A stretch of 6,451 nucleotides of DNA from Nitrospirota bacterium (GTDB taxonomy: Bacteria; Nitrospirota; Thermodesulfovibrionia; Thermodesulfovibrionales; SM23-35): positions 1 through 6,451 of the forward strand of contig JAOUJR010000102.1 in NCBI GenBank assembly GCA_029883145.1, given 5' to 3'. Numbering within the stretch: position 1 is the stretch's first letter; every line of letters begins with the position of its first letter. Both the position numbers and the translations under genes were made by a program. The notes beneath the pieces are model-generated. The model did not search any database. It worked only from the letters and a program-made list of their open reading frames with translations, and was not told the origin of the DNA. Shown one piece after another: positions 1 to 5,932 of the stretch.

Positions 1-321
1 GCCAAGCATCTTGCCGAAACGCTCGGCCCAGAACAGGTTGGAGCCGCCCTCGTAGAGAGACACGATGTTGTTGTTGTTAATCTGCGGCAGGATCCATTCT
101 TTTTTACCCCACACGCCGGATCCGTAGGGCCACTCGGTGGACTTGTAGCGTTCCTCGAACAGCTTCATCCACGCCTTTGCATCGCGGTTGGCAAGGGCGT
201 GAAGGTCGTGCTGCACTTCCAGCAGCGAACCGCATGTCTTGCAGCGATAGACGATCGAGTCGAGCGGATAGCTCGCCAGGCACTGCTGATTGATGCATTG
301 AAACCAGGCACGATATGACAT
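1..321 (-). CDS. thrC: Threonine synthase, N-terminal part (cut by window edge)
   Basis: The 107 codons present encode the N-terminus of a PLP-dependent threonine synthase, which converts O-phospho-L-homoserine to L-threonine and phosphate in the cytoplasm (last step of threonine synthesis). Seen: a zinc-ribbon-like start with Cys9, Cys14, Cys27 and Cys30 (CX4C...CX2CG), then the phrase GSLLEVQHDLHAL typical of this family. Near residues 86-107 comes the 'VSLYEGGSNLFWAERFGKML' stretch, which occupies the place of the usual 'SLGEGNTPL' segment. The PLP lysine lies beyond the window. The start at 321 is chosen because the protein begins as family members do, 'MSYRAWFQC'. An in-frame ATG ten codons upstream (351-349) would add an unlike sequence. 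There is no Shine-Dalgarno before either. The gene is GC-richer than the neighbouring sigma gene. Family assignment is firm; the exact start is fairly sure. Confidence 0.87.
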   Translation of the reverse strand, partial: MSYRAWFQCINQQCLASYPLDSIVYRCKTCGSLLEVQHDLHALANRDAKAWMKLFEERYKSTEWPYGSGVWGKKEWILPQINNNNIVSLYEGGSNLFWAERFGKMLG

Positions 322-2624: not shown

Positions 2625-5129
2625 ATGCAGGAAAAGAGGAATGTAACCTCCACACCATCGCAGAAACAGCGTGAGGATAGCCGCACCGGGTTAAGCACGG
2701 AAGCGATCAAGCAATCGATTCTTGATAATCTCTTCTTCCATCTTGCAAAGGTTCCGCATGCTGCAACCCGGAACGACTGGTATATGGCACTTGCGTATAC
2801 AGTCAGGGACAGGATGATTCAACGATGGATTAAAACACTCCAGAACTTTACGGAAGATATTACGGTCGTTGCGTATTTGTCTTCCGAGTTTCTCATGGGA
2901 CCACAACTCGGAATCAACCTCATTAACCTCGGCATCTATGATGAGGTCTTTCAGGCTGTAAAAGGATTAGGTCTTCATTTACACGAACTTACCGAGCAGG
3001 AGGAAGAGCCCGGGCTTGGTAGTGGTGGTCTTGGGAGGCTTGCAGCCTGCTACATGGATTCACTTGCAACTCTCGAGCTTCCTGCAATCGGGTACGGGAT
3101 TCGCTATGAATTTGGCACCTTTGATCAGGAGATTCAGGACGGCTGGCAGGTTGAAATGACCGATAAGTGGCTTCGCCAGGGTAACCCCTGGGAGATTCCA
3201 CGACCCGAGATCACCTACAATGTGAGTCTCGGCGGCCGCACCGAATCGTGTTATGACGAGCATGACTGTTTCCGGGTGCGCTGGATTCCCAAATTTTCTA
3301 TCAAGGGGACTGCATATGACACACCCGTTTCCGGATATAGAGTTGCGACAACAAACCTGTTGCGTCTTTGGAAGGCAGAGGCCATCGAATCCTTTGCTTA
3401 CGAAGCATTCACCATAGGTGATTACTTTGGTGCAGTGAACGAGAAGATTGCCTCAGAGTCGATCAGCAAGATCCTCTATCCCGATGACGAACCATACGTC
3501 GGCAAACAGTTACGGCTGGCGCAGCAGTATTTCTTTGTCTCCTGTGCTCTCCAGGACATGATCCGTTTGCACCTTTTGCGCTGGAAAAGCATCTATAACT
3601 TCTCTACATCCTTTGCAGTGCAGTTGAATGGCACCAATTCCGCAATCGCCGTGGCTGAACTGATGAGACTCATGGTGGATGAACATCTGGTGAGTTGGGA
3701 CAAAGCATGGTACATCACACAGAACACTTTTTCATATACAAACCATACAATTTTACCTGAAGCCCTCGAGAAGTGGCCTCTTACCCTGTTCTCAGGTATC
3801 CTCCCGAGACATCTTGAAATTATTTATGAGATAAACCGGCGCTTCCTTGACGAGATATGGTTAAGGTATCCTGACAATAATGACAAACTCACCAGTCTCT
3901 CCCTCATCGATGAGAGTGATCAGAAATATGTCAGGATGGCACAGTTTGCAAGTTTAGGGAGTCACGCAATAAACGGAGTTGCAGAAATCCATTCAGAGTT
4001 GCTTAAGAAGACCATACTCCCCGACTTTTATGAGATATATCCTGAGAGGTTTCTCAACGTCACCAACGGTGTGACACCGAGGCGCTGGATTGTACTCAGT
4101 AATCCAGGGATTACTGAACTTATTACGAATACAATCGGAGACCGCTGGATCAGTCAACTAAAAGAAATAGAACAGCTTGAACCCTTTGCTGATGACCCGG
4201 ACTTTATAAAAAAATGGCAGCAGGTAAAGTATGAAAACAAATGTGTTCTCGCCAAGATCATTTCTGACCGGACTGGAATTTCCGTTAACCCTGACATGCT
4301 CTTCGACATTCAGATGAAGCGTCTCCATGAATACAATCGCCAGCACCTCAACGTTCTTCACATAATCACGCTCTATAATAGAATTAAGAAAAACCCTCAG
4401 ATAGACATCACTCCACGCGCATTCATCTTTGGAGGTAAATCATCTCCTGGCTATTTCATAGCGAAGCTCATCATAAAACTGATCAATTCCGTTGCCGAAG
4501 TGGTGAACAATGATCCAGACGTGGCAGGACGCCTGAAAGTTGTTTTTTCCCCCGGCTTTAATGTAAAGAATAGTCAAAATGTTTATCCGGCTGCTGATCT
4601 CTCCGAACAGATCTCTACAGCAGGGAGAGAGACATCTGGTACAGGGAGTATGAAATTCTCTATGAATGGTGCATTAACGATAGGGACATTAGACGGAGCG
4701 AACATTGAAATCTGTGAGGAGGTGGGTGCCGAGAACTTTTTCCTCTTCGGGTTGACTGCAGAAGAGATTTCCAACATGAAATCTCATGGCTATAATCCCA
4801 TGGGATACTATAATGCCAATCCGGACATGAAAGAAGTGGTCGATCTTATCAGTTCAGGATTCTTTTCCAAAAAAGACATAAATCTGTTCAAGCCTCTTGT
4901 TGACTCATTGCTCTGTCGTGATGAGCATATGGTCATTGCCGATTATCAGTCCTACATTGACTGCCAGGACCGTGTGAGCGCGGCGTTCAGAGATCAGGAA
5001 AAGTGGACGAATATGTCGATACTCACTGTTGCGCGGATGGGAAAGTTCTCATCTGACCGATCCATACGTGAGTTCAACGAAAAGATATGGCACGCTGCAC
5101 CTCTAAAAATTGATAGTGAAAATGCATAA
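2625..5129 (+). CDS. glgP: GT35 alpha-glucan (glycogen/maltodextrin) phosphorylase homologue with altered active-site motifs
   Basis: The family releases glucose 1-phosphate from alpha-1,4-glucan ends using phosphate and PLP, in the cytoplasm. The 834 aa are full length for GT35. Seen: 'GLGSGGLGRLAACYMDS' (130-146), 'AIGYGIRYEFG' (154-164), 'YTNHTILPEALEKWP' (371-385, His374), 'TNGVTPRRW' (480-488, Asn481), 'MKRLHEYNRQ' (564-573), 'GGKSSPGY' (603-610), 'PAADLSEQISTAG' (655-667) and the PLP motif 'SGTGSMKF' with Lys677. Matching rabbit muscle phosphorylase (offset about 3), R569, H377, N484, E672 and K680 are kept. However, D339, H341 and P342 are Gly336, Asn338 and Ser339, K574 is Asn571, and N678 is Ser675. 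The frame is otherwise undamaged. A GGAG seven bases before the ATG sets the start. So family membership is certain, but normal phosphorolytic activity is doubtful. The next gene follows after 80 bp and may be co-transcribed. The gene symbol marks the family only. Confidence 0.93.
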   Translation: MQEKRNVTSTPSQKQREDSRTGLSTEAIKQSILDNLFFHLAKVPHAATRNDWYMALAYTVRDRMIQRWIKTLQNFTEDITVVAYLSSEFLMGPQLGINLINLGIYDEVFQAVKGLGLHLHELTEQEEEPGLGSGGLGRLAACYMDSLATLELPAIGYGIRYEFGTFDQEIQDGWQVEMTDKWLRQGNPWEIPRPEITYNVSLGGRTESCYDEHDCFRVRWIPKFSIKGTAYDTPVSGYRVATTNLLRLWKAEAIESFAYEAFTIGDYFGAVNEKIASESISKILYPDDEPYVGKQLRLAQQYFFVSCALQDMIRLHLLRWKSIYNFSTSFAVQLNGTNSAIAVAELMRLMVDEHLVSWDKAWYITQNTFSYTNHTILPEALEKWPLTLFSGILPRHLEIIYEINRRFLDEIWLRYPDNNDKLTSLSLIDESDQKYVRMAQFASLGSHAINGVAEIHSELLKKTILPDFYEIYPERFLNVTNGVTPRRWIVLSNPGITELITNTIGDRWISQLKEIEQLEPFADDPDFIKKWQQVKYENKCVLAKIISDRTGISVNPDMLFDIQMKRLHEYNRQHLNVLHIITLYNRIKKNPQIDITPRAFIFGGKSSPGYFIAKLIIKLINSVAEVVNNDPDVAGRLKVVFSPGFNVKNSQNVYPAADLSEQISTAGRETSGTGSMKFSMNGALTIGTLDGANIEICEEVGAENFFLFGLTAEEISNMKSHGYNPMGYYNANPDMKEVVDLISSGFFSKKDINLFKPLVDSLLCRDEHMVIADYQSYIDCQDRVSAAFRDQEKWTNMSILTVARMGKFSSDRSIREFNEKIWHAAPLKIDSENA

Positions 5130-5209
5130 AAGGGTTCAAGGATTCGAGTGAAATGAAAAAGAATATTCATATCCTATTTATCAACTAATAATTGGAGGGT
5201 AGAACCGCA

Positions 5210-5932
5210 ATGAATTATAAAGGATTGTCAGAAATCATACAGTCCTCTTCGCTGCTCAGCCAGGTTGAGGGAGCAGAGAAACTTTTTCTCTCAGGCCGCC
5301 GGAAACGGGGCGAAGATCTTGAGAGTGCGGTAAGATTCTTCCTGGAGTTCGTGCATGGTTTCGAAAGCTTCGATTTTGACGGTCCATGCGTTACTGTTTT
5401 CGGATCGGCTCGCTTTCAGGAGAGACATCGCTACTACGAGCTCGCCCGCGAACTTGGGCGCGCGCTCGCCACTGCAGGCTATGCTGTTATGACCGGAGGC
5501 GGCCCAGGGATTATGGAGGCTGCAAACCGGGGTGCCAAGGAAGGTGGAGGCTTGAGTCTCGGCTGCAATATTAAACTTCCCATGGAGCAGAAACCAAATC
5601 CATACCTTGATAAGTTCATCGAATTTGAGCACTTTTTCGTGCGCAAGGTAATGCTCGTAAAGTACTCCTCGGCCTTTGTCGTAATGCCCGGTGGTTTCGG
5701 CACGCTTGATGAGGCTTTCGAAGTGATCACACTTGCTCAGACCGGAAAGCTTGAGCGCTTCCCGGTCGTGGGTATGGTCAGGGACTTTTGGGATCATCTC
5801 CGCCGTTTCATGAGCGACACAATGCTTGCCGAGGGTACCATCAGCAAAGAGGATATGGATTTCATCCAGGGAGCGAACACAGTTGAGGACGCCATTCGCA
5901 TCATCCGTCGCCTCTCGCGAGGAAGCTTTTAA
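5210..5932 (+). CDS. LOG-family nucleoside-monophosphate phosphoribohydrolase homologue (TIGR00730 type)
   Basis: The 240-aa protein has the Rossmann-like fold family once misnamed 'lysine decarboxylase'. Characterised members cleave the base from nucleoside 5'-monophosphates (cytokinin ribotides in LOG, or AMP/other NMPs in bacteria). Seen: 'VTVFGSARF' (61-69), 'TGGGPGIMEAANRGA' (95-109), 'NPYLDKFIEFEHFFVRKVML' (130-149, with the Arg145-Lys146 pair) and the signature PGGFGTLDE (160-168, Glu168). These are the expected nucleotide-binding and catalytic residues, all intact. The start is ATG 5210, ten bases after GGAGGG (5194-5199). An upstream in-frame TTG at 5192 overlaps that ribosome site and is therefore unlikely. 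The residues before about 55 are a helical N-terminal extension seen in the longer subgroup. Cytoplasmic, no signal peptide. Substrate cannot be told from sequence. It follows the phosphorylase in the same direction but is GC-richer. Confidence 0.9.
   Translation: MNYKGLSEIIQSSSLLSQVEGAEKLFLSGRRKRGEDLESAVRFFLEFVHGFESFDFDGPCVTVFGSARFQERHRYYELARELGRALATAGYAVMTGGGPGIMEAANRGAKEGGGLSLGCNIKLPMEQKPNPYLDKFIEFEHFFVRKVMLVKYSSAFVVMPGGFGTLDEAFEVITLAQTGKLERFPVVGMVRDFWDHLRRFMSDTMLAEGTISKEDMDFIQGANTVEDAIRIIRRLSRGSF

Follow-up and report, generated by a model that had tools for sequence, protein, structure and literature searches.

A Clade of Glycogen Phosphorylase-Like Proteins with an Altered Cleft: Predicted Loss of Catalysis and a Likely Role as Partner of an Adjacent LOG Nucleosidase

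Introduction

Few enzymes are as familiar from textbooks as glycogen phosphorylase, whose active site hardly varies. In a 6,451-nucleotide stretch of Nitrospirota DNA (the whole stretch is referred to here as the window), a long and intact phosphorylase frame reads NGTNS at the position of the usual NDTHP motif. What can be the use of a phosphorylase that is maintained with such a cleft? A first, sequence-only reading of the window had proposed that catalysis was lost or changed, and that the product had become either a glucan-binding regulator or an enzyme that uses a different donor or acceptor. The analysis presented here points to a whole clade with an altered cleft, predicted to be catalytically dead, whose likely role (probability about 0.6) is that of a non-catalytic partner of the LOG nucleosidase encoded next to it. 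A clade in which the catalytic site is free to vary and the scaffold is guarded would offer a natural dissection of the scaffold's non-catalytic work.

Results

The Window Protein Retains the Fold and Has Several Altered Cleft Residues

The gene and its altered or retained cleft elements are located as follows.

2625..5129, + strand: pseudo-phosphorylase ORF, 834 aa/codons, glycogen-phosphorylase fold, member of the pseudo-phosphorylase clade
3021..3032, + strand: SGGL, the glycine-rich loop (rabbit 133-136), with N133S
3627..3641, + strand: NGTNS replacing NDTHP, residues 335-339 (rabbit 338-342)
4335..4337, + strand: Asn for the presumed phosphate-site Lys, rabbit K574, window residue 571
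4629..4655, + strand: ETSGTGSMK stretch, retaining E672 and K680, the PLP lysine, with changes A673T and N678S

The window protein belongs to the GT35 fold and sequence family over its full length, scoring above the curated cut-offs of both PF00343 (Pfam, 1054.8 bits) and TIGR02093 (NCBIfam, 1124.2 bits). The best PDB match of its AlphaFold model (mean pLDDT 81, pTM 0.84) is the Crocosphaera structure 9wvu (TM 0.93; 61% sequence identity over 813 columns), and phosphorylases are found throughout the matches. Identity to mammalian glycogen phosphorylases, such as that of rabbit muscle, is 47%-48%. Segments of the model with pLDDT <50 lie at residues 1-16, 129-133, 258-261, 377-380, 663-676 and 688-691. 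Confidence in the cleft loops is lower than in the canonical control P0121, but as evidence of a damaged cleft this adds little and was set aside: the control likewise has pLDDT <50 at 662-666 and at both ends, and it too is soft at ~650-690.

In a HMMER alignment, NGTNS pairs with N338-D339-T340-H341-P342 of rabbit muscle phosphorylase (2pyd), the first residue of whose chain is taken as the initial Met for rabbit numbering. Further changes, in that numbering, are N133S, K574N (window 571), A673T (670) and N678S (675). The roles of the scored cleft sites are assumed from rabbit phosphorylase biochemistry, including that of K574 as the phosphate-site lysine. Compared with the cleft of active enzymes, the window protein departs at N133S, D339G, H341N, P342S and K574N, and the lysine that forms the PLP Schiff base (rabbit K680) is present as K677. 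Changes at rabbit Y648 and R649 were dropped as signs of cleft decay, being common to intact sister sequences.

The replaced motif noted earlier is real. It recurs in P0001, a cluster of two member sequences on two contigs, the longest of 10,445 b against the 6,451 of the window, with at least one K/R exchange relative to the window protein. A base-calling error at NGTNS is unlikely because P0001, a slightly different sequence, carries it too.

The Cleft Varies throughout the Clade

Relatives were collected with three protein queries, namely the window protein, a canonical sister (L016) and the most diverged genome member (L018/L047), the best 120 of ~8,000 scored candidates being taken for each; the last query contributed at least 16 further members from its best 120. 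At the genome level, the searches extended to 101 relatives, 230 genomes of the class and 395 of the phylum, and at least 80 loci were taken from a scan of named genomes. For the phylum search, the cleft counts cover loci within the host family. In the resulting tree of 369 aligned proteins, the window clade is monophyletic with 147 tips, support of 1.0 and a stem of 0.20; parsimony-step counts are based on an earlier, smaller tree in which the clade has 131 tips. Over residues 30-820, 144 of the 147 clade sequences and 221 of the 222 outside it are distinct (three identical pairs and one, respectively). Most clade members have no organism label, and those that do are assigned to Nitrospira, Nitrospirota, Nitrospirae or Thermodesulfovibrionales. 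Members with a protein name are annotated as starch, glycogen, maltodextrin or alpha-glucan phosphorylase, and because of this, metabolic models that use such names are likely to be wrong. A partial phosphorylase from another family (G176:C187:16681-18669) is 68% identical to the window protein.

Twenty cleft sites were scored (window 133-135, 335-339, 374, 481, 565, 566, 568, 570, 571, 669, 672-674 and 677), picked on the basis of phosphorylase biochemistry; L136 was inspected early as a 21st site outside the 20. All 21 residues are kept in none of the 144 distinct clade members, compared with 217 of 221 outside the clade. The 20 sites are intact in two clade members (P0004 and P0038, whose sole change among the 21 is L136 to Pro) against 218 of 221, the outside exceptions being L031, L032 and L132. 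Clustering at 90% identity gives the same picture for all 21 sites (0/80 clade clusters versus 154/158). NDTHP itself is kept in 15/144 clade members and in 221/221 relatives outside, which puts its replacement in the window protein far beyond chance. Of the 147 clade rows, 123 have something other than NGGL at the glycine-rich loop.

NGTNS, among the 144, is restricted to the window protein and P0001, and 39 different strings occupy residues 335-339 within the clade. The motif change picked out by the sequence-only reading is thus confirmed but is only part of the picture, as the whole cleft varies across the clade, and the alignment with GT35 members that it had proposed as a check returned clade-wide cleft changes at sites nearly fixed outside. 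Its suggestion of another donor or acceptor finds no support, since there is no shared set of replacements.

The contrast with canonical enzymes is also evident from the rate of change. All 115 controls from the L016 search keep the 20 sites; these sites account for 240 parsimony steps across the 131 sequences of the clade and for none in the controls, with similar tree lengths (13.6 and 12.7; rank test p=3.4e-11). Twenty random control-invariant sites reached the observed mean of 12.0 steps at a frequency of 5e-5. The control-invariant positions most changed in the clade include 338, 481, 136, 339, 376, 455, 675, 690 and 570, which we take to line the cleft or adjoin it, and 165, 87, 692, 375 and 439 also rank high. 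For each of the equivalents of Lys568, Arg569, Lys574, Gly135, His377 and Tyr573, between 12 and 63 of the 131 members have a different residue.

Some residues are largely retained. The E672 equivalent is kept in 127/131 clade members and the PLP lysine in 142/144. That this lysine is required in the clade held for 131/131 members and was overturned by P0255 (825 aa, 81% identical to the copy in genome G009) and P0256 (820 aa), which have His in its place yet keep these lengths. Because the lysine is kept in 142/144, PLP may remain as a structural group, although two members dispense with the lysine. Compared with GT35 phosphorylases, then, the cleft is altered in every examined member of the clade, and two lack the PLP lysine as well. 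Some members may retain activity, because P0004 and P0038 keep the 20 sites and 15/144 keep NDTHP. Decay of the catalytic site across the clade is strongly supported, and to judge from these residues catalysis has very probably been lost in it. The earlier proposal of lost catalysis in an otherwise intact frame is therefore strongly supported, for the clade rather than for a single protein.

The Protein Is Maintained while the Cleft Has Lost Constraint

The frame runs without a stop through each of the 13 genome copies, which have 822-838 codons. Across them, omega is 0.124 over 806 codons and 0.155 at cleft codons, with dS at saturation in the deeper pairs; the tree for the cleft is 1.6 times longer than that for the rest of the protein. 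Intact frames, low omega and the longer cleft tree together lead to the conclusion that the protein is maintained and that constraint has been lost at the cleft. Positive selection at the cleft was considered and rejected, given an omega of just 0.155 there versus 0.124 elsewhere; lost constraint, not diversification, is therefore claimed. The dN/dS estimate thus indicates purifying selection and not general decay, in line with the first reading. Homology to an enzyme, clade-wide loss of catalytic residues and purifying selection, the three features by which a pseudoenzyme is recognized here, are all found.

Compared with the controls, the clade changes more slowly in two stretches.

3495..3614, + strand: residues 291-330, 186 versus 334 parsimony steps, p=4.8e-5
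3810..3944, + strand: residues 396-440, less clearly slower, 298 versus 424 steps, p=0.0038

Residues 661-700 are the fastest (342 clade versus 67 control steps, p=2.3e-11). Because these three regions were chosen after inspection of the data table, the limit set by shuffling for 40-residue windows is a safer guide than the regional p values. Windows starting at 288-293 are the lowest and fall below the limit, as do those near 735; the fastest starts at 661 and exceeds it. The 396-440 stretch is absent among the lowest 40-residue windows listed. It does contain an Arg to Trp replacement at 412 (W412 in 128/131 clade members) and D432 and Q433, both frozen in 131/131; newly frozen positions include S208, Y210, T76, L318, Y363, E410, Q433 and R765. 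Residues 396-440 presumably align with the glycogen storage region of rabbit phosphorylase, and the frozen stretches are taken to represent its effector and glycogen-storage regions.

An Apparently Intact LOG Nucleosidase Accompanies the Pseudo-Phosphorylase

A second gene follows on the same strand.

5130..5209, + strand: intergenic gap of 80 bases, with GGAGG ahead of the LOG-X start
5210..5932, + strand: LOG-X, type II LOG-family nucleosidase, 240 aa, above the TIGR00730 and PF03641 cut-offs

No terminator-like site is found on the + strand within 5130..5209. LOG-X has the motif PGGFGTLDE and, as in type II LOGs, a catalytic Arg 23 residues ahead of the Glu; its nearest solved sequences are 1wek and 5wq3. 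The catalytic Arg and PGGxGTxxE are present in 12/12 full-length copies, all of which have by sequence the type II features of PGGxGTxxE, catalytic Arg and Glu, and an N-terminal extension. The type II definition and the residue roles are those given in the available portions of PMC5379747. LOG-X resembles the type II LOGs Cg1261 of C. glutamicum and Tt1465 of T. thermophilus in its N-terminal extension, in PGGxGTxxE with Asp before the Glu, and in the catalytic Arg; a phosphorylase partner is not mentioned in those portions. LOG-X is apparently an intact type II LOG nucleosidase and a predicted nucleotide-cutting enzyme.

The distribution of LOG-X matches that of the pseudo-phosphorylase. Among the 230 class genomes searched, LOG-X at ≥89% identity occurs in 13, and these are exactly the 13 of 20 family genomes with the pseudo-phosphorylase (one copy is a fragment of 91 residues lying at the end of a contig). 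It is found in 0/7 family genomes without the pseudo-phosphorylase, three of which are <90% complete; four of the seven have LOGs of 45%-49% identity, and three have none at E<=1e-40. If the genomes were independent, such co-presence would arise by chance once in 77,520 (Fisher's test). Measured match to match, LOG-X lies 16-84 bases downstream of the pseudo-phosphorylase on the same strand in 6/13 genomes, at ~0.9 kb in two, at 7.4 kb in one and on another contig in four. No LOG of >51% identity lies near the outside-clade phosphorylase loci, within flanks of ~1.5 kb to 8 kb. LOG-X is also well conserved: its mean identity is 91.7% versus 86.6% for RecA and is the higher in 55/55 pairs from 11 genomes, over which the pseudo-phosphorylase averages 68.7%.

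On a RecA tree, the pair has to change at least six times; most nodes of that tree are weakly supported, its outgroup G093 is placed among the family members, and G002 and G005 are left out (no RecA locus above cut-off). G000 and G001 are sisters at 100%, yet they differ for the pair. Shared descent or missing sequence may be partly responsible for the co-presence. On the genomic evidence as a whole, a functional tie between the pseudo-phosphorylase and LOG-X is probable.

Four genomes of family f21 (G196, G197, G198 and G201; loci L178-L181) have LOGs 69%-71% identical to LOG-X, and no phosphorylase match at E<=1e-150 was found in them. A LOG of this type can therefore act without the pseudo-phosphorylase, and the older role of LOG-X may be visible there.

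Proteins of the Mrr restriction-endonuclease type (280-305 aa, above cut-off, with a borderline ATP cone) were also observed, at L042 11321-12166, L178 7005-7859, L181 1718-2635 and L038 2315-3157. One adjoins LOG-X in G004, others adjoin the 70%-identical LOG in the f21 genomes G198 and G196, and in G011 such a protein is 4.8 kb from the pseudo-phosphorylase. They are a possible further partner.

Other Glycogen Genes in the Clade Genomes

The genome from which the window derives is a draft of 444 contigs and is 86.6% complete. The search for a second, canonical copy, proposed from the window sequence, found no full-length second phosphorylase in this 86.6%-complete genome; two proteins exceed the TIGR02094 phosphorylase cut-off, with the stretches EASGTSGMK and EACGTSGMK, in which E...K appears intact by eye. 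A GT5 glycogen-synthase-type gene is present. CBM48 had no match in the 86.6%-complete genome, and hence nothing there points to a branching enzyme of the CBM48 kind. Four of the 13 genomes (G009, G013, G018 and G019) also have a full-length phosphorylase of another group (L049-L052) with the scored cleft intact.

Discussion

A Likely Partner of LOG-X and the Alternatives

In the clade, constraint on the cleft was lost and the cleft residues changed in many lineages separately, the scaffold being kept. On the best explanation, phosphorolysis would have been lost as well. The pseudo-phosphorylase and LOG-X would act together, presumably as a complex, and residues 291-330 and 396-440 would be the likely binding surfaces that carry the remaining function. 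The frozen stretches would then tune the LOG nucleosidase through what they bind, whether partner, nucleotide or glucan. That the two proteins form a regulatory complex is put at a little under an even chance. A fuller version is tentative and rather doubtful: it would make this the first pseudo-phosphorylase family, a dedicated sensor subunit of LOG that reads the glucan or nucleotide state through the old storage and effector sites and ties the glycogen reserve to nucleotide turnover. If the tie to LOG is true, storage-polymer proteins are linked to nucleotide breakdown, which is directly testable.

The strongest competitor, though unlikely, is a dead phosphorylase acting alone as a glucan- or effector-binding protein of glycogen metabolism, with LOG-X merely co-inherited. 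It would account for the slower change in 291-330 and, less clearly, 396-440, it would find company in the GT5 gene and the two TIGR02094 phosphorylases of the own genome, and it sits easily with the four genomes in which LOG-X is unlinked. Against it are the co-occurrence of LOG-X (13/13 versus 0/7 family genomes) and the missing CBM48 match in the 86.6%-complete genome. The glucan-binding regulator of the first reading survives to this extent: it may hold, as the region that presumably corresponds to the glycogen storage site of the rabbit enzyme changes more slowly than in controls, but the co-inherited LOG nucleosidase is the strongest lead. Still less probable is a phosphorylase that remains active, or has changed its donor or acceptor, and tolerates a varied cleft. 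Such an enzyme might be expected to retain the E672 equivalent and the PLP lysine as widely as is seen (127/131 and 142/144), and NDTHP in 15/144 and the two members altered solely at L136 also speak for it; however, each of the six cleft equivalents has been replaced in 12-63 of the 131 members with no common set of residues, two members have no PLP lysine, and 115/115 controls are unchanged at the 20 sites.

The two remaining explanations concern the gene rather than its function. In one, selection relaxed once the role had passed to another phosphorylase, and the gene is turning into a pseudogene; this would fit the four genomes with a full-length canonical phosphorylase from a different group, but is very improbable in view of 13/13 full-length open frames, an omega of 0.124 and one stretch slower than in controls. 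An error of sequencing or assembly at the motif could be imagined in a draft of 444 contigs. Its probability is negligible, given NGTNS in P0001, including the second sequence on a longer contig, and the altered cleft of every examined clade relative. The partnership with LOG-X is accordingly preferred.

Relation to Known Systems

A phosphorylase bound by an unrelated protein has a bacterial counterpart in the complex of E. coli glycogen phosphorylase with HPr, going by the title of PDB entry 9s8k. The phosphorylase in that complex is presumably an active enzyme under regulation, and the clade protein would be the regulator instead. No inactive glycogen phosphorylase family was evident among open-licence PMC titles and abstract openings. 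The nearest precedent in kind found is MKIP1 of plants, a branching enzyme that has lost catalytic activity on glucans and is a splicing partner of Maturase K, as described in the available part of PMC13172542. The likeness lies, according to that part, in an enzyme of glucan metabolism that lost catalysis and partners an unrelated protein. MKIP1 differs in being a branching enzyme, in belonging to plants and in being proven there by experiment, whereas the role of the pseudo-phosphorylase is deduced from sequences.

Other Features of the Window

The upstream part of the window contains three further frames.

1-351, - strand: start of a protein that runs off the window, matching threonine synthase weakly (E 4.4e-4, under the cut-off)
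432-671, + strand: 79-aa ORF, no family match above cut-off
834-2264, - strand: RpoD/sigma-70 family sigma factor, 476 aa, upstream and divergent

The sigma factor scores just below the cut-off for the RpoD C-terminal domain (342.6 of 354 bits) and well short of that for the MzaA model (359.5 of 800 bits). It and the 1-351 ORF were considered as conserved upstream neighbours and rejected, being absent at the other clade loci compared; that comparison used ORFs of ≥80 codons and so leaves out the 79-aa ORF. The 1-351 ORF has Cys pairs resembling a zinc ribbon. The intergenic segment 710-785, GTCATTCCGAGG...GCAATGACAG, resembles by eye a dispersed inverted-repeat element.
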